Part shown: in pieces, positions 17,217-40,654 of the stretch | How positions within the stretch are numbered: the first letter of the stretch is position 1 | How the letters are laid out: each line of letters begins with the position of its first letter | Source of the DNA: Campylobacterota bacterium | Lineage (GTDB): Bacteria; Campylobacterota_A; Desulfurellia; JAADFJ01 | Length of the DNA: 40,654 nt | Reading direction: 5' to 3' | NCBI GenBank assembly: GCA_013152955.1 | Contig: JAADFJ010000102.1 | Coordinates: forward strand, 1 to 40,654 | The notes under the pieces: generated by a model | Seen by the model: only the letters and a program-made list of their open reading frames with translations | Told to the model about the DNA's origin: nothing | Database searches by the model: none | Program-made: the position numbers and the translations under genes

Positions 17217-18119
17217 TTGAAAAAAAACAAAATTGTAGTTATTTATGGTCAAACTGCATCCGGAAAGAGCGATTTGGCGATAAAGATTGCCAAGCGATTT
17301 TCAGGAGAAATCATATCAGCTGATTCAGTTCAAATCTATAAAGGATTTGATATCGGGAGTGCAAAAATCCCTAAGAACAAAAGAACTGTAATTCATCATA
17401 TGCTGGATGTCAAAGAACCCGATCAAGAATACTCTGCGGCAGAATTTGCAAAGGAAGCGCTAAAGATTATAGACAAAATTCTGAATAGAAAAAATCTGCC
17501 GATTGTTGTCGGAGGAACAAATTTTTATATAAGAGCACTTATAAACGGAATAGATGGCGCCATTAAGATCCCCTGCTGGATAAATCAATTTGTAAAAACA
17601 GCATATAGAGAAAAGAAAGATAAGCTATACCGAATTGTCAGGTTGTGCGATCCGCAAAGAGCTGAAGAACTGTCGTCTAATGACACCTATCGACTTGAAA
17701 AAGCGCTCTCGGTTTATCTGACTTGCGGCAAATCGATAAAAACTTTCGAAAAGACGGCACCTCCTGTATTCAGTCCAATCAAAATCGGAATTCTTATTGA
17801 TAAAAAGGCATTAAAGGACGGCATAACCGAACGGGTTCGACAAATGTTCTCCTCAGGTCTCCTTGACGAAACAAGAACAATTATCAAAAAATACGGTACA
17901 GATATTAAACCGCTTTATTCAATTGGATATAGACAGGCTCTCTCGGTAATAAATGGAACTTTGAGCATAAGTGAAGCCATGGAGGAAACAATAAAAGAGA
18001 GTCTTCAATACGCAAAACGACAGGCAACATGGCTGAAAAAAGAGAAAAATATACTCTTTTTTAACACTCAGGACAATAAATTGTTCGATTATATTGAAAA
18101 CAGCTTGAAGGGTGAATAA
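17217..18119 (+). CDS. miaA: tRNA dimethylallyltransferase
   Basis: Adds a dimethylallyl group to A37 of tRNAs that read codons starting with U. The 300-residue length is usual. Motifs: the P-loop YGQTASGKSDLA (residues 10-21; most homologues have GPTASGKS), ISADSVQIYKGFDIGSAK, HHMLDVKEPDQEYSAAEF, VVGGTNFYIRALING, NDTYRLEKALSVY, SIGYRQAL and the C-terminal YAKRQATWLKKE. The start is TTG directly after the RecO stop. After the gene there is a 288-bp stretch with a repeat remnant and no recognisable gene. Confidence 0.95.
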   Translation: MKKNKIVVIYGQTASGKSDLAIKIAKRFSGEIISADSVQIYKGFDIGSAKIPKNKRTVIHHMLDVKEPDQEYSAAEFAKEALKIIDKILNRKNLPIVVGGTNFYIRALINGIDGAIKIPCWINQFVKTAYREKKDKLYRIVRLCDPQRAEELSSNDTYRLEKALSVYLTCGKSIKTFEKTAPPVFSPIKIGILIDKKALKDGITERVRQMFSSGLLDETRTIIKKYGTDIKPLYSIGYRQALSVINGTLSISEAMEETIKESLQYAKRQATWLKKEKNILFFNTQDNKLFDYIENSLKGE

Positions 18120-18224
18120 AGACGGCAAACAGGATTGCATCATATATCAGGATACGTCCAAAGCATATCAGCAGCAGAAAAAAATGAGAAAATACCATCT
18201 GTATAATTTCTTTCTATAGGTAAA

Positions 18225-18325
18225 GCAAACTTCTGAGGGACTAACGGGTTAATTCAAAGAAGCAAAACGCAAGTATACGGGAAACATCATAAAGCCCGCA
18301 GGAAAATCAAATAAAAGACAAGATC
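18225..18325 (+). repeat. Remnant of the intergenic element, left-arm type (copy F)
   Basis: GCAAACTTCTGAGGGACTAA, followed by CGGGTTAATTCAA, closely matches the left arm of the panB-panC element at 39974-40005, including the subterminal palindrome. Weaker similarity continues over AAAGCCCGCAGG. The left terminal repeat is not recognisable, although AATGAGA occurs about 40 bases upstream. The rest of the 288-bp gap between miaA and the XRE gene shows nothing I can assign except the hairpin at its right end. Confidence 0.6.
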
Positions 18326-18395
18326 ATTAACTCATCTTGCGCACTAAAGACAAGTCTCAACGATAAGATAAGAGGAAAGTTTTAGATGAAAAGCA

Positions 18396-18417
18396 GGTTC
18401 TTGAGAATTAAAGAACC
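18396..18417 (-). terminator. Hairpin spanning the stop codon of the XRE-cupin gene
   Basis: GGTTCTT (18396-18402) and AAGAACC (18411-18417) form a perfect 7-bp stem with an 8-base loop. On the minus strand the TAA stop of the regulator gene lies in the loop, and TGCTTTTC follows. This resembles a short intrinsic terminator, although the T run is interrupted. Confidence 0.45.
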
Positions 18418-18950
18418 GGAGGCGCAACCACCCAGATTGTCTCACAATCAATGTCTTGTGTATTTTTGTAGCTATGCGGCACAACCGCACGAAAATAGAA
18501 GCTGTCGCCTTCTTTCACTACATAGCTTTTGTCTGCCAGTTTAAGTACTAGCTCGCCCTTCAGCACATAGCCGAACTCTTCGCCTTCATGTCTGTGTACC
18601 CCATGAGTTTCCGAATGAGCAGGTATTACTTTGAATAATGGTTCCATCTGCTTTTCGGTAATTTTTTTTACCAAAAGCTCAGCTGAAACATTACTTTCCG
18701 GATAAAGAATTTTGACCCTTTCGTTTTTTTTCATTACAACAGGTTCGACATCTTTTGCATCACTCAAAATTGATCTTACATTCGTTTCAAGTGCGTTTGC
18801 AAGCTTTTGCAAAATCGTTATTGATGGAACGGCTTTTCCTGTTTCTATTTGAGACAAATATGCATCAGTGCACCCCACATTTTTGGCAAGTATTTTTAAA
18901 GTCATTCCTTTTCGTTTTCTTAACGTTTTAACCTTCTCAGACATTTTCAT
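18408..18950 (-). CDS. XRE-family transcriptional regulator with C-terminal cupin domain
   Basis: A 180-residue regulator. Residues about 5-60 form a helix-turn-helix of the Cro/cI (XRE) type: LRKRKGMTLKILAKNVGCTD, then YLSQIETGKAVPSITILQKL. Residues about 105-178 are a small cupin beta-barrel (HSETHGVHRHEGEEFGYVLK, then GDSFYFRAVVPHSY) whose histidines and glutamate could bind a metal or small effector. Such proteins often regulate nearby transport or catabolic genes. It lies downstream of the acetate-transporter-type gene on the same strand, separated by a terminator, and has its own promoter. The operator-like palindrome in the transporter promoter is a possible binding site. The ligand is unknown. 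The ATG at 18950 follows GGGGAG; an ATG two codons later is also possible. Confidence 0.9.
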   Translation of the reverse strand: MKMSEKVKTLRKRKGMTLKILAKNVGCTDAYLSQIETGKAVPSITILQKLANALETNVRSILSDAKDVEPVVMKKNERVKILYPESNVSAELLVKKITEKQMEPLFKVIPAHSETHGVHRHEGEEFGYVLKGELVLKLADKSYVVKEGDSFYFRAVVPHSYKNTQDIDCETIWVVAPPVL

Positions 18951-18982
18951 AGGTTTGCTCCCCGCTTAATTGGCTATAAACT

Positions 18983-19011
18983 ATAATAGAAAAGTTTTTC
19001 CCTAATATCAA
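18983..19011 (-). promoter_or_regulatory. Sigma-70 promoter of the XRE-cupin gene
   Basis: On the minus strand TTGATA (19011-19006) and TATTAT (18988-18983) are separated by 17 bases. Initiation near 18976 would give a leader of about 26 bases with a GGGGAG ribosome site before the ATG at 18950. Confidence 0.65.
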
Positions 19012-19025
19012 TAGGATTAAACAAA

Positions 19026-19053
19026 AAAAAGACGGATTTTACTCCGTCTTTTT
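19026..19053 (-). terminator. Intrinsic terminator after the acetate-transporter-type gene
   Basis: GACGGA (19031-19036) pairs with TCCGTC (19043-19048), extended by flanking A and T runs on either side. On the minus strand the stem is followed by eight T residues, which ends the transporter transcript. The A/T flanks make it usable in both directions. A second small hairpin (CCGCT/AGCGG) lies just upstream at about 19063-19076. Confidence 0.8.
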
Positions 19054-19093
19054 CTGTTTGGACCGCTATGAAGCGGCCTTTAATCGATTTATA

Positions 19094-19648
19094 TTATTTT
19101 GCAGCTTTAAGCTGCGCTTCAAGTCCCTGCCACATTATATACCATGCAACTGCCGCAACGAAAATTCCCAACCAGCCCCCTATGCGCGTAATAGCCGCTG
19201 CTCCGGAATAATGGCCGATCACCAAAAGTATGAAAGTCACTAAAAGCGAAACAAAAAGTGTTCCGAGATATGGCCCATGCTTAACCGCCACTATCGTCAT
19301 AATTGCAGTAAAGATTGTCCAAGCCAAAAGCGTTAGTCCGAGTGACGCACCAAAATCCGCTCCTGATATTGCTTTTAGATAAACTCCAGTATATACAAGA
19401 ACTGCCAATGCAATCCAGAAAGCTCCATATGAACAAAATGCAACAAGACCGAATGTATTACCTGTTTTCATCTCAAGAACACCTGCAATCAGCTGTGCCA
19501 AGCCGCCGTAAAACAGTGCCAATGGTAACATCGCGTGAATTCCGGCCGGAACAATGCCGGCGTTATGAACACTAAGTACAAAAGTTGTCAACGCAAATCC
19601 GCCTAACCCTAACGGTCCGGGATTAGCATAAGTTACCTTTTCAGACAT
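19094..19648 (-). CDS. Acetate/succinate transporter of the GPR1/FUN34/YaaH (SatP) family
   Basis: A 184-residue inner-membrane protein with six hydrophobic helices. The N-terminal signature reads [20 protein letters not shown], close to the family's NPAPLGL motif, followed by [20 protein letters not shown] and [11 protein letters not shown]. Family members move acetate and related small monocarboxylates or succinate across the membrane; the exact substrate cannot be read from sequence. The ATG follows a strong GAAGGAGG. It is a single-gene unit: own promoter with a palindromic spacer, a leader of about 160 bases, and a terminator behind it. Confidence 0.9.
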
Positions 19649-19810
19649 AAATCCTCCTTCGGTTTAAGAAAAAATTTTTGAATCAAAAATTATAGAATAA
19701 TAGCCCCCCAGCCCTTGTGAATAAGTCTATCACCTCCTTTTATTAACTTACCTTACCCACATAGGTAGTACGCAAGACAAGTTATTGATTTTGTAGCTAC
19801 CCAACACTAT
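19649..19810 (-). promoter_or_regulatory. Long transcribed leader of the YaaH-family gene
   Basis: About 160 bases separate the promoter from the start codon. On the minus strand the leader contains a possible stem pairing GGTAG(C)TAC with GTACTACC, then AAAGGAGGTGAT (19740-19729), a full complement of the usual 16S rRNA 3' end, with no ATG, GTG or TTG at a normal distance. Near the gene there is an AT-rich palindrome (AATTTTTG-ATT-CAAAAATT) followed by T residues, then the true ribosome site. I recognise no known riboswitch class. Confidence 0.4.
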
Positions 19811-19816
19811 GATTTC

Positions 19817-19844
19817 ATTCTACAAATAATTATTTGTTTGTCAA
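19817..19844 (-). promoter_or_regulatory. Promoter with palindromic operator for the YaaH-family gene
   Basis: On the minus strand TTGACA (19844-19839) and TAGAAT (19822-19817) are 16 bases apart. The spacer is almost exactly a perfect 16-bp palindrome, ACAAATAATTATTTGT (19822-19837). A repressor dimer bound there would block the polymerase. The XRE-cupin protein encoded next door is a candidate, by proximity only. Confidence 0.65.
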
Positions 19845-19874
19845 CTGTCCGAATTGTTGCTGAAGGCGTTTCTA

Positions 19875-20105
19875 TATAATACAGGATATTCGAATTGAAA
19901 GTCTGAATCGTCGACAAATTACATATGATAATTTTGGGCTATTGCCGAAATTTACAATACAGAAAAGGCTGATTTAAACCCAATCTAAAACGCTTAGAAT
20001 TAATAGAAGTGCCCTTAACTAACCGGTTAGCGCCTCAAATTTTAATTTCTAAATCTCACCCTTTATTTAACTTCCGCGGATCTGTTTATTGTGCAGCAGT
20101 CTCAT
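19875..20105 (+). repeat. Diverged copy of the intergenic element with intact right end (copy B)
   Basis: Aligned with the panB-panC element: TTGCCGAAATTTACAATACA, GAAGTGCCCTTAACTAACCG, TCAAATTTTAATTTCTAAAT and the right terminal repeat TTATTGTGCAGCAGTCTCAT at 20086-20105, followed by AATA. The subterminal palindrome CTAACCGGTTAG is perfect (20019-20030). The left half is much more diverged and no left terminal repeat is found. The segment AAAACGCTTAGAATTAATAG is shared exactly with copy A. It lies just upstream of the HD-GYP gene promoter. Confidence 0.8.
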
Positions 20106-20133
20106 AATAAGCATTCAACTTTAAGCCCTGCAC

Positions 20134-20161
20134 TTGATTCTGAACAATTTGTATGTAATAG
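20134..20161 (+). promoter_or_regulatory. Candidate promoter of the HD-GYP gene
   Basis: TTGATT (20134-20139) and TAATAG (20156-20161) are 16 bases apart, and the preferred ATG begins eight bases after the -10 box, so the message would be nearly leaderless. The -35 box begins 28 bases after the right terminal repeat of copy B. Confidence 0.4.
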
Positions 20162-20169
20162 TATCGCAA

Positions 20170-22641
20170 ATGAAATTTGATGGCATTTCAGAACTACTTC
20201 GTAATAAATTCACCCGATCCTTTATCCTGTCAGCTGCGCTTCTGCTTTTGTTCTATTTATTATTTATGTTTAGTATTGTGCATTCTTTCAAGATTAATGC
20301 CGCAAAAGAGGTACGGCGAGAGGAAGTTTGGCGATCAAAAATCGTCGCTCTGAGAATAAAGCATTATCTGTCTAACTCTAAAAACAGGTTAAATCATCTG
20401 ATTAGAATGACTACAGAAAACGGACTGTCAAACGAAAATTATATTATTGATGAGTTTAATCGTTTGAAAGGTTCCCGCTCTTACAACAAAATTTTCGTAC
20501 AGCTTGCAAACAATAGAATTGTTGAATACAAAAACGGCAAGTTTAGTTACAGTACCATCAAATACGCTCCTAAAGAAGGTGCACAGATTATTTATAAAAC
20601 CGAACTTACGAAAAATAAAACTATCGTGAAAGTTCCTTACAGTGTTATAAAAAAAACCGTATTTTTAAACGGCTTACGATTTTTTTCTATTATATATGAG
20701 GAGCCGTTAAAACAGATTGCAGAAAAATTTTTGAAAAATATGAGCGCCGATTCCGACATGAAAGGCTCTGCATTTATGACAGACATTTACGGGAAAATTG
20801 TTTTTACAAAAGGGAACGGCTTGCATCACAAAATTATTTATGATATATCGGATATCGGAGAATCTTTCAAACGACAACTGTCAAAATTTGTCAAGAAAGA
20901 CAAGCCGTTCAGCATCCTTTATAAATCAGATAAAACCAAAGAGCGCTACATAATCGGTTTTTATCCTATCCGAATTGACGGCAAACTATTTTATCTTGCC
21001 TTATCTGCACCGGAAAACGAAATCTATGAGAGAGTTGGGAGTACTGCAAAAAAACTAATTCCTATAGGCATTATTATATCGTTATTCGGTATCTTACTTA
21101 CTACCTTTTTCTTCATTCGCTTTGCAAAAATCAATAGGAAACTCGAGAGCAGTCAAAAATTTATCTCGAAATTATATGAAAGGCAACAGAAAAAAACCGT
21201 CTTCCTGGAGACTATCTCTTATAAAACCGTTTCCGCAATGGAAAGCATAACATACGACTCACAAAATAGCCTTATAAAAATAGATGAAATATTTGACGAA
21301 ATTTCCGAATTTATAGATTGCAGATTATATTTGTTTTATAAATATAAAAACCGCGTTCGAATGATTAGAGCTAATGGTAAAATCTTCAGTTGCGACTCCG
21401 ATCGAATTATAAGCAACTCAAGCTTTCTTAAATACAATCTAACATTTTATCAGCTGTGGCGCGGTCTGTTTATCGCAATTGACAGCCGCTATCGGGATCC
21501 TCTTTTTTTAGTTCAGATTGTCAACATATTAAGACTTTACGGTAGAGCATCAACGGCAATACGCCGCAATAACTCCTTTATGAGTCGTTTGATAAGAATG
21601 ATTGTACTGTCAATTGATGTGCGTGACAGCTACACATCCGGTCACTCAAAAAGAGTAGCCGCTTATAGCAAGAAGATAGCGTCGGCTCTTGGATATTCTG
21701 CTGAAAAATGCGATAAAATTGAATTGGCAGGACTTCTTCACGATTTAGGAAAAATCGCAATACCGGATATAATACTGATGAAACCGGGTTCATTAAGTGA
21801 TTACGAATATGGCATAATCAAATATCATCCTGTTGTTGCCTATAAACTGTTAAAAATTTTGCCTGAGTTTGCCGATATTGCACTCTGGATAAAATATCAT
21901 CATGAACGGGTTGACGGAAGAGGATATCCTAATAAAATAAGCAGCACTATTCCGGTCGAATCAAAAATATTGGCCGTTGCCGATGTTTTTGACGCCCTAA
22001 CATCCGAACGAACCTACAGAAACCGAATGTCCGTAGAACAAGCAATAAAAATTATCGGCTCTGCATCGGGATATCAGTTTGACAGTAAGATAGTCGCTAA
22101 AGCAATTTCTGTTCTGCCGAACACTTGGAAGGAGCAATTAAGTGATCCGAAAGTTTCGGCGTTTGTTGAAATTGAATGTTTTAGAAGAGAAATGTTTGGC
22201 ATTGATTGGGAAACAGGTTTGTACGGAAATACCAGATTGATCAAAAAGATTGAAACATTATATAAACAAAATAACACCTTCAGCGTTGCCGTTTTGATTT
22301 TATTCGATTATGATCTATATCGTCGAGATCATTCATTTAACCATGCTTTAAAGTCAATGAGCAACATGGCAAAGGTTGTTAAAGCACACTCAGACATTGC
22401 GGCACGTACCGGATATACGGAAATTTCACTGGTTTTCATCAATAAGTCTTACACGGATCTCATTTCCGCCATAGATGAGATCAGACACTCCTCAAAACTA
22501 AATTTTCATTACGGTATAGCAAATTCAAAAGAATATAAGAATGCGAACAGCCTGTTGCTGAACGCTCAGCAACAGGCCAAATTACTGTGCGCTAAAACCC
22601 TGATCAACTGGACGGAGAATAATAAATGTTCCCTTCAATAG
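20170..22641 (+). CDS. Membrane sensor with HD-GYP phosphodiesterase and degenerate GGDEF-like domain
   Basis: About 823 residues. A transmembrane helix (about 17-38) precedes a roughly 250-residue extracytoplasmic sensor region, then a second helix (PIGIIISLFGILLTTFFFIR). After a linker comes a complete HD-GYP domain: SGHSKRVAAYSKKIASALGY, LLHDLGKIAIPD (His524-Asp525), YHPVVAYKLL, and HHERVDGRGYP from residue 577. HD-GYP domains hydrolyse cyclic di-GMP. The last roughly 140 residues look like a worn GGDEF domain: DWETGLYGNTRLIKKIE matches the usual D-x-LTGLxNR opening, but the signature GGDEF loop reads RTGYTEI, so cyclase activity is unlikely. Start is uncertain: ATG at 20170 has no ribosome site, and an in-frame TTG at 20134 coincides with the -35 box. 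It overlaps tatB by 16 bases. Confidence 0.85.
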   Translation: MKFDGISELLRNKFTRSFILSAALLLLFYLLFMFSIVHSFKINAAKEVRREEVWRSKIVALRIKHYLSNSKNRLNHLIRMTTENGLSNENYIIDEFNRLKGSRSYNKIFVQLANNRIVEYKNGKFSYSTIKYAPKEGAQIIYKTELTKNKTIVKVPYSVIKKTVFLNGLRFFSIIYEEPLKQIAEKFLKNMSADSDMKGSAFMTDIYGKIVFTKGNGLHHKIIYDISDIGESFKRQLSKFVKKDKPFSILYKSDKTKERYIIGFYPIRIDGKLFYLALSAPENEIYERVGSTAKKLIPIGIIISLFGILLTTFFFIRFAKINRKLESSQKFISKLYERQQKKTVFLETISYKTVSAMESITYDSQNSLIKIDEIFDEISEFIDCRLYLFYKYKNRVRMIRANGKIFSCDSDRIISNSSFLKYNLTFYQLWRGLFIAIDSRYRDPLFLVQIVNILRLYGRASTAIRRNNSFMSRLIRMIVLSIDVRDSYTSGHSKRVAAYSKKIASALGYSAEKCDKIELAGLLHDLGKIAIPDIILMKPGSLSDYEYGIIKYHPVVAYKLLKILPEFADIALWIKYHHERVDGRGYPNKISSTIPVESKILAVADVFDALTSERTYRNRMSVEQAIKIIGSASGYQFDSKIVAKAISVLPNTWKEQLSDPKVSAFVEIECFRREMFGIDWETGLYGNTRLIKKIETLYKQNNTFSVAVLILFDYDLYRRDHSFNHALKSMSNMAKVVKAHSDIAARTGYTEISLVFINKSYTDLISAIDEIRHSSKLNFHYGIANSKEYKNANSLLLNAQQQAKLLCAKTLINWTENNKCSLQ

Positions 22642-22952
22642 GTACCGGAGAGCTGCTGATGATACTTTTGGTGGCTCTGGTAGTAATAGGACCCAAAAAG
22701 CTTCCCGCAGTAATAAAAACCATTGCAAAAGTCTATAAATATATAAGAAAAACTTCAGCAGAAATCACATCTTCCATCAATGAAGCTGCCAATGATACAA
22801 AAGAAACCATCAATGAACAGAAAGAATCGCTGTCCGATTACTTCGGGGAAATAGAAGATTTTGATGATATTGACATAACTGAGCCGAAATCTGAAAAAGG
22901 CGATGATGAACACCCGCAGAAAGAACAGCAATCTTCAAAAAAACAATTATGA
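22626..22952 (+). CDS. tatB: Sec-independent translocase subunit TatA/TatB
   Basis: A 108-residue single-span protein of the twin-arginine translocase, which exports folded proteins. It opens with MFPSIGTGELLMILLVALVV and IGPKKLP: a short transmembrane helix, the GP hinge and an amphipathic helix, followed by an acidic, polar tail. The Glu in the helix is shared with TatB and some TatA proteins, and the length suits TatB, so I favour TatB but cannot exclude a dual-function TatA. It overlaps the HD-GYP gene and shares an ATGA overlap with tatC. Confidence 0.88.
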   Translation: MFPSIGTGELLMILLVALVVIGPKKLPAVIKTIAKVYKYIRKTSAEITSSINEAANDTKETINEQKESLSDYFGEIEDFDDIDITEPKSEKGDDEHPQKEQQSSKKQL

Positions 22953-23698
22953 AAGATAAAGACAAAGAACTTACTTTCATCGAACATCTTGGCGAACTAA
23001 GAAAACGCATAATCTACATGATGACAGCAACATTTATAGCCGCTGCGATATGCTATCACTTTTCGCTTCAATTGCTTGAATTTGTGATAGCTCCGCTCCT
23101 AAGTGCCCTGCCGCCCAAAAGCCATATAATATTTACAGGACTCACGGAGGCATTTTGGGTCAGAATAGAAATAGCTCTTGTTGCTGCACTAATTTTTATC
23201 AGCCCTTTCAATTTTTACCAGCTTTGGGCATTTATTTCTCCAGGCCTGAAAAAACTCGAGAAACGTTTTGTGATTCCTTTTGTTCTCTCCTCTTCCATCC
23301 TGTTTGTTGCGGGTGCCGCATTTGCATATTTTGCGGTTTTCCCCATTGCATTTCGGTTTCTCATCAGCTACGGAGGCTCATCGCTTACGGCACTTCCATC
23401 TATCAAAGCATATCTGTCGCTTGTAATGAAACTGATCTTAGGATTTGGATTGGTTTTTGAATTGCCTGTTGCAACATTTTTTCTTGCAATTTTTGGAATA
23501 ATAGATCATAAATTTATGATAAAAAATTTTGCATATGCCATTCTTATAATATTTGTTGTTGCGGCCGTTCTAACTCCTCCCGATGTTTTTTCACAGTTTC
23601 TGATGGCTGTTCCTCTTATCATTTTATATTTAATAAGCATAGTAATAGCAAAGCTTGTAAACAAAAAAAAGCCTGAAGAAAAAGAAAATGATACTTAA
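22949..23698 (+). CDS. tatC: Sec-independent translocase protein TatC
   Basis: A 249-residue, six-span receptor subunit of the Tat system that binds twin-arginine signal peptides. The diagnostic N-terminal FIEHLGELRKRII, SPFNFYQLWAFISPGLKKLE after the second helix, FGLVFELPVATFFLA and LTPPDVFSQFLMAVPLIILY are all present. The ATG overlaps the tatB stop (ATGA), so the pair is translated together, and its 3' end overlaps the prepilin peptidase gene by 11 bases. Confidence 0.96.
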   Translation: MKDKDKELTFIEHLGELRKRIIYMMTATFIAAAICYHFSLQLLEFVIAPLLSALPPKSHIIFTGLTEAFWVRIEIALVAALIFISPFNFYQLWAFISPGLKKLEKRFVIPFVLSSSILFVAGAAFAYFAVFPIAFRFLISYGGSSLTALPSIKAYLSLVMKLILGFGLVFELPVATFFLAIFGIIDHKFMIKNFAYAILIIFVVAAVLTPPDVFSQFLMAVPLIILYLISIVIAKLVNKKKPEEKENDT

Positions 23699-39917: not shown

Positions 39918-40343
39918 TGAGACCGCTGCACAGTAAGCACCTTCACAGCAATATCAGCTTTTTCACAGGCGAGGCAAACTTCTGCAGGATTAACCGGTTA
40001 ATTCAAGAAAGTTTAACAAAGCATAGAGATAAGCAGATATCGCCCACAGGGAAGGCTGATATCGGACAGTCTTCAAGAAATAAAATTCTACAGGACGCTT
40101 CTGCTAACTCTAAGCGTTTTGGATTGAGAGTCCAAATTTGTCTCATCAAGGCGCAAATTGCAGGTAATAACAGAGCTATTGCCGAAATTTGCAGCACAGA
40201 GGAGGCGGATTTGGGACTCAAGATGATCGTTTACGGATCAGCAGAAGTGCCCTTAACTAATCGGTTAGTCCATCAAATTTTAATTTCTAAATCTTGCTAT
40301 TTATTCGGCTTCTGCGGAGGCAATTATTGTGCAGCGGTCTCAT
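39917..40343 (+). mobile_element. MITE-like palindromic element between panB and panC (copy D)
   Basis: A 427-bp element with 20-bp terminal inverted repeats: ATGAGACCGCTGCACAGTAA at 39917-39936 and TTATTGTGCAGCGGTCTCAT at 40324-40343, with one mismatch between them. AATA flanks both ends (39913-39916 and 40344-40347), a possible target duplication. Inside, the perfect palindrome ATTAACCGGTTAAT (39989-40002) and its relative CTAATCGGTTAG (40257-40268) lie 72 and 75 nt from the respective ends. The centre can form a stem between GCAAATTGCAGGTAATA and TATTGCCGAAATTTGC. Short open frames cross it on both strands but are interrupted in the other copies. No transposase is encoded, so it would need one supplied elsewhere. 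Confidence 0.8.
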
Positions 40344-40346
40344 AAT

Positions 40347-40654
40347 ATGAAAATAGCAAAAACGGTACTGGAACTGCGTTCTCTTGTAAAAAACGGCAAA
40401 CGTCCGATAGGACTTGTTCCGACAATGGGTTCACTGCATAAAGGACATGCGGAACTTATTAAACAGGCTCGTTCTATATGCAAAACAGTTGTGGTATCGA
40501 TTTTTGTCAATCCTACACAGTTTGCACCTAATGAAGATCTGAACAGCTATCCGAGAGATTTTGTTCATGATCGAAATCTGTGTATTGATAATGAGGTGGA
40601 TCTGCTATTTTATCCGCCGACAGAAGAGATTTACCATGATAATTTTTCAACAAC
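40347..40654 (+). CDS. panC: Pantothenate synthetase (partial, runs off right edge)
   Basis: Condenses pantoate with beta-alanine to give pantothenate. About 102 codons are visible: MKIAKTVLELRSLVKNGKRP, then the ATP-binding PTMGSLHKGHAEL (variant HIGH motif), VVVSIFVNPTQFAPNEDLNS, YPRDF and VDLLFYPPTEEIY. The ATG starts four bases after the right terminal repeat of the MITE-like element, and its first base is the last base of the putative AATA duplication. No ribosome site is present except what the element's end supplies (GCGGAGGCAA about 25 bases upstream, too far). Translation might therefore depend on the inserted sequence. Confidence 0.95.
   Translation, partial: MKIAKTVLELRSLVKNGKRPIGLVPTMGSLHKGHAELIKQARSICKTVVVSIFVNPTQFAPNEDLNSYPRDFVHDRNLCIDNEVDLLFYPPTEEIYHDNFST

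Follow-up and report, generated by a model that had tools for sequence, protein, structure and literature searches.

A perfect palindrome in the promoter spacer of an AceTr/SatP-type transporter gene beside an XRE-cupin regulator gene: candidate operator or incidental symmetry?

Does a perfect palindrome in the spacer of a strong promoter-like sequence mark the operator of the regulator encoded next to it? The question is raised by a stretch of 40,654 nucleotides (the window; contig JAADFJ010000102.1 of assembly GCA_013152955.1, Campylobacterota bacterium, class Desulfurellia), whose features are collected in Table 1. A first-pass annotation had described a perfect 16-bp palindrome between the TTGACA and TAGAAT of an acetate-transporter-type gene, and had proposed an XRE-cupin protein encoded directly downstream as its cognate repressor. 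The symmetry is indeed exact (ACAAATAATTATTTGT), and the two hexamers form the top promoter-like match in the scanned region 17500-23500. The palindrome does lie in the spacer, but not wholly between the two hexamers: 15 of its bases belong to the spacer, and the remaining one is the T that opens the -10 hexamer. The transporter assignment is borne out, with 140.6 bits against NF038013 (cut-off 50), 155.3 bits against PF01184 (cut-off 25) and a match to the SatP/AceTr structures 5ys3 and 5zug at an E value of 1e-31; no notable difference from SatP/AceTr was seen, and acetate is the presumed substrate from the family name. The downstream gene is as described too. Its ORF begins 146 bp downstream of the transporter gene and has the domains of an XRE-cupin regulator, an N-terminal Cro/CI-type HTH (HTH_3, 48.4 bits; cut-off 23) and a C-terminal Cupin_2 domain (71.3 bits; cut-off 27.2). 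The best NCBIfam match of this regulator, to PuuR (NF007408), spans nearly the whole protein, yet at 86.3 bits it is far under the curated cut-off of 211, and the protein is not a PuuR equivalog by that measure.

Table 1. Features of the window around the transporter and regulator genes
Feature	Position	Strand	Basis
XRE-cupin transcription regulator gene (HTH_3 + Cupin_2)	18408..18950	-	profile matches
Promoter-like site TTGATA-17-TATTAT before regulator gene	18983..19011	-	10/12, consensus match only
Intrinsic-terminator-like hairpin between transporter and regulator genes	19024..19055	-	13 pairs, then T run
AceTr/SatP acetate-transporter gene (PF01184, NF038013)	19094..19648	-	profile matches
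Leader, about 165 nt up to start codon	19649..19816	-	holds AAAGGAGGTG and GGCTGGGGGGCTA
Leader block GGCTGGGGGGCTA	19713-19701		unchanged in 3/3 congeners
Leader block AAAGGAGGTG	19740-19731		unchanged in 3/3 congeners
Sigma-70-like promoter TTGACA-16-TAGAAT	19817..19844	-	11/12 consensus matches
-10 hexamer TAGAAT	19822-19817	-	
-35 hexamer TTGACA	19844-19839	-	
Perfect 16-bp palindrome ACAAATAATTATTTGT	19822..19837	no strand	sequence
Dispersed repeat, first copy	20017-20109	+	
Second perfect 16-bp palindrome ATCATAAATTTATGAT	23505-23520		inside ORF 22949-23698
Dispersed repeat, second copy	40243-40347		

How unusual is such a palindrome? By itself it is unremarkable, because 1.1 (order-1) to 1.55 (order-3 Markov) perfect 16-bp palindromes are expected per window and two are seen. 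The second one falls inside an ORF that we take to be tatC-like. The location of the first inside a promoter spacer is less ordinary than its existence. Random spacers of 68% A+T give a palindrome of at least 16 bp in a TTGACA-16-TAGAAT promoter at a frequency of 0.00065 (about 6.5 in 10,000), and shuffles of the spacer itself reach an equal one at about 0.002. Among 91 TTGACA-N15-18-TANNAT strings of the genome (92 rows, one of two overlapping matches being dropped), only the transporter promoter holds a palindrome of at least 14 bp, the runner-up having 12 bp, and about 0.06 spacer palindromes of this kind are expected by chance over all 91. Genome-wide, the 16-mer has one other copy at up to 2 mismatches, inside an ORF, and 20 places at up to 3 mismatches against 46 for the reversed control.

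Is the symmetry kept in relatives? The check that the first-pass annotation had named, conservation in related genomes, largely fails. Within the genus, which comprises the window's genome (G000) and two others (G001 and G002), the -35 is retained in all three and perfect symmetry is found in G000 only. The spacer of G002, AACAAATAATTATTTTG, has one extra T in one arm, which breaks the symmetry and shifts the spacing of the half-sites; the regulator of G002 is nevertheless 98% identical. In that of G001, AATAGATAATTATTTG, one arm differs at two positions and the other is unchanged, leaving 6/8 pairs with the core ATAATTAT and one full half-site retained. The G000-G001 spacer identity of 14/16 is not above that of the fourfold sites of the transporter gene (78/95; P 0.43). 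An earlier baseline had pooled the fourfold sites of both genes (identity 0.69, P 0.08), and it was replaced by the transporter alone because the two genes differ in divergence. Outside the genus, no counterpart of the palindrome was found in the spacers of 15 other transporter promoters by pairing count and by eye; with sites as picked by script there are at most 6/8 pairs, the G005 site being mis-picked and those of G005 and G021 being read by eye. Upstream of the regulator gene the best match to the palindrome has at least 4 mismatches in 23/23 regions, and 7 in the window's genome. An EM search for palindromic motifs in the regions upstream of 18 transporter and 23 regulator genes, most of the former extended a few codons into the gene, gave no shared operator and returned mostly ribosome-binding or start-codon patterns and terminator stems.

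The divergence of the two genes is a matter of its own. Between G000 and G001, fourfold differences number 17/95 in the transporter gene versus 34/68 in the adjacent regulator gene (18411-19648; L086, L087, L089, L090), and between G000 and G002 they are about equal (17/100 and 15/73). The unequal G000-G001 divergence may reflect an exchange of the promoter-transporter-terminator block between lineages.

What is well kept is the gene pair. In a sample of 25 genomes of the class, a close regulator orthologue (E 1e-67 or better) is found in 23 and an intact transporter gene in 18, plus one contig-end fragment (G018). In all 18 the regulator gene lies 95-151 bp 3' of the intact transporter gene on the same strand; judged by neighbourhood alone, the regulator gene stands beside a putative metabolic or uptake target. 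Five genomes (G013, G014 and G022-G024) have the regulator and no detected transporter; therefore the regulator probably has a role beyond the transporter. In G013 and G014 it comes directly after the gene, presumably deacetylase-like, that elsewhere precedes the transporter gene. When 80 AceTr loci from genome contigs were searched with up to 4 kb of flank per side, a regulator relative (E 1e-6) was present in three and absent from 77; the three are an uncultured Hippea MAG (L005), a MAG labelled Campylobacterales (L006) and Desulfurella acetivorans (L007), with regulators identical to those of G002, G001 and G003, respectively. The cupin domain keeps an intact histidine/glutamate pattern HxH...E...H, which we take to be its ligand pattern and most of which is invariant in the 10 regulators aligned of 23 available. 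The presumed recognition helix, TDAYxSQIETGK, is invariant except for x in the same number, and a true operator should therefore be shared.

Reading the gene pair as a transporter and its local XRE-cupin regulator is well supported, and arrangements of this kind are known (PMC7901475). Most known XRE-cupin proteins act locally, repressing an uptake or processing gene next to their own, and have palindromic sites. Pseudomonas ErfA, PsdR, PauR and others resemble the present case in having an XRE HTH and a cupin beside a gene for small-molecule uptake or processing. They differ in that palindromic promoter sites are reported for them, whereas here the palindrome is a candidate and not conserved, and in that the neighbour here is an acetate transporter of Desulfurella/Hippea-like bacteria. 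According to PMC12724383, the class binds palindromes of 15-25 bp near promoters, and DbuR of Pseudomonas putida is likewise an XRE-cupin repressor beside a transporter-containing operon, with a footprint over a 20-bp A+T-rich near-palindrome and the predicted -10. The gene dbuR is divergent from its target, while the regulator gene here shares the strand of the transporter gene and follows it, with a terminator-like hairpin in between. XRE motifs are also the topic of PMC12565409. The operator-like position ascribed to the palindrome by the first-pass annotation is typical of XRE-cupin repressor sites described in PMC7901475 and PMC12724383.

Do other promoters of the class carry a related site elsewhere? 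All three genomes of genus g7 (G019, G020, G021) have ACAAATAATTAAATGT, with 2 mismatches, just past the transporter -10, and genus g5 (G016, G017) has ACAAATCATTAAATGT, with 3 mismatches, at the transporter promoter near the transcription start. By eye these sites are imperfect, with 6/8 and 5/8 pairs. The g7 genomes have only 2-5 sites each at up to 2 mismatches, and simulated 130-nt promoters reach 2 mismatches with a probability of 0.0013-0.0016 per genome. Because the g5 and g7 sites seem to share a common origin, they were counted as one event, whose chance over the five non-window genera with an intact transporter gene is about 0.007 for a site found post hoc. Their position fits the placement from -20 to +10 reported for XRE-cupin sites in PMC12724383, and the g7 site is a result that favours an operator. 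Near the putative target promoter, a palindromic site of 15-25 bp is perfect in the window only, broken in both congeners, and represented in g7 by a related sequence.

Outside the window's genus the transporter -35 is preceded by a block, TTAATTTTnnCTTGAC. In the 5 of 25 genomes searched it also precedes other sequences, presumably pilin-like, small heat-shock-like, MraZ-like, solute-binding and rRNA-leader-like; it was therefore rejected as the real operator and is read as a general strong-promoter (UP-like) feature. By eye, TTAATTTT followed by CTTGAC within 1-4 nt is seen at 15/15 non-window transporter promoters (L123-L137) and at the G018 fragment, and at 0/3 in the window's genus; it has 13 matches in 5 genomes versus 3 for the reversed control, and several of the matches precede other genes that are presumably strong. 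The window also holds, upstream of the transporter promoter, a copy of a dispersed repeat of about 92-110 nt, which has 54 places in G000, 58 in G002 and 1 in G001, some copies giving several places. Alignment of this copy with 15 others shows a near-invariant core AACTAACCGGTTAGTnCCTCAAATTTTAATTTCTAAATCTCACCC...TTATTGTGCAGnGGTCTCATAAT. At its other side one copy (L190) seems to bear an inverted end, and the repeat may therefore be a MITE that has spread in two of the three congeners.

Downstream, a terminator-like hairpin and a promoter-like site of its own stand between the regulator gene and the transporter gene, which are therefore probably transcribed as separate units. In family f3 (L101-L105, L107, L111) the presumed regulator -35, TTGACA, lies within the transporter terminator hairpin (for example GGGGCTTGACAAAAAGCCCC, then a T run), and terminator and next promoter therefore seem to overlap. 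In the leader there is a near-repeat, TGGGTAGCTA/TGGGGGGCTA, along with a 13-bp hairpin region that is predicted in G000 and G002 and missing from G001.

Then what is the palindrome? As a control site it is no more than an ordinary candidate. The likeliest reading, though we put it at even odds, is that its perfect symmetry is private to the window's genome, incidental as a full-length element and not kept by selection. This is argued because the symmetry is broken in both congeners with the spacer conserved no better than silent sites of the transporter gene, because the 15 other promoters lack a spacer counterpart despite the invariant presumed recognition helix, and because the sole other genomic site at up to 2 mismatches is within an ORF and chance alone should yield palindromes of this size in the window. 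Against incidental symmetry stand the rarity of the placement by chance (0.0006-0.002), the adjacent XRE-cupin gene, the half-site in G001 and the g7 site. A serious rival to it, though one that we hold less likely than not, takes the palindrome as the operator to which the neighbouring XRE-cupin protein binds: seated between -35 and -10 as a dimer, the protein would block RNA polymerase until released by a cupin ligand such as acetate, an acyl compound or a metal complex. The pair conserved in 18/18 genomes, the placement in the spacer and the related sites at the transporter in g7 and, at 3 mismatches, in g5 speak for such an operator, as do the habits of known XRE-cupin repressors (PMC7901475, PMC12724383); the lost symmetry, the 1-nt insertion in G002 beside a nearly unchanged regulator, the lack of a similar site before the regulator gene (0/23), the 15 promoters without a spacer counterpart and the regulators retained without a detected transporter speak against it. 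Of the first-pass proposal, the transporter identity, the adjacent XRE-cupin gene with its cupin pattern and the site position stand, as does the conservation of the pair, while conservation of the palindrome and a close copy before the regulator gene are not supported.

Two further possibilities move control to another protein or another part of the transcript. MarR, TetR, Fur-type and many other regulator families use A+T-rich dyads, and the palindrome could be the operator of one of these while the XRE-cupin protein works elsewhere. The lack of any trace of the palindrome at the XRE-cupin gene agrees with this, but a second well-matching promoter site is missing from the genome, where even 3 mismatches give fewer places than the reversed control, and we find the idea improbable. 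Alternatively, the regulatory part might be the conserved leader blocks, acting as RNA, and not the promoter. Between G000 and G001, AAAGGAGGTG and GGCTGGGGGGCTA are identical at 10/10 and 13/13 positions versus 10/18 for the stretch between them. However, the leader folds no better than shuffles (z 0.35), an Rfam scan of it found no family near threshold, and by eye it is not common to genomes outside the window's genus. A riboswitch or other known RNA was rejected on the first two grounds, and leader control of any kind seems very improbable.

Returning to incidental symmetry, the relatives give no support to the exact palindrome as a symmetric operator under selection, and a degenerate operator may overlap it. 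In this reading the AceTr/SatP-type transporter gene would be driven by its own strong sigma-70 promoter, and the regulator gene would be transcribed separately, after the terminator. The regulator most likely controls uptake of acetate or a related carboxylate; it would sense a carboxylate via its cupin domain and act on the transporter gene, presumably with a degenerate or different site as its main contact. An extension of this, unlikely as a whole, is that a class-wide repressor of acetate uptake reads a degenerate ACAAATnATTAnnTGT-type site that shifts between promoter positions, in the spacer in the window's genus and near the transcription start in g5 and g7.

If this last reading were true, an AceTr transporter and an XRE-cupin regulator would be linked for the first time in the literature searched, in which neither the exact 16-mer nor a connection of XRE-cupin proteins with AceTr/SatP acetate transporters was found. 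Titles-level results for Desulfurella and Hippea gave nothing on control of acetate uptake, and none of six acetate-transport terms occurs in PMC5317093. The palindrome serves mainly as a caution: unless relatives can be compared, a perfect dyad in the A+T-rich spacer of a single genome counts as weak evidence. The conserved transporter/XRE-cupin pair is a clear candidate for the control of acetate uptake in the acetate-using sulfur reducers of the Desulfurella/Hippea group.
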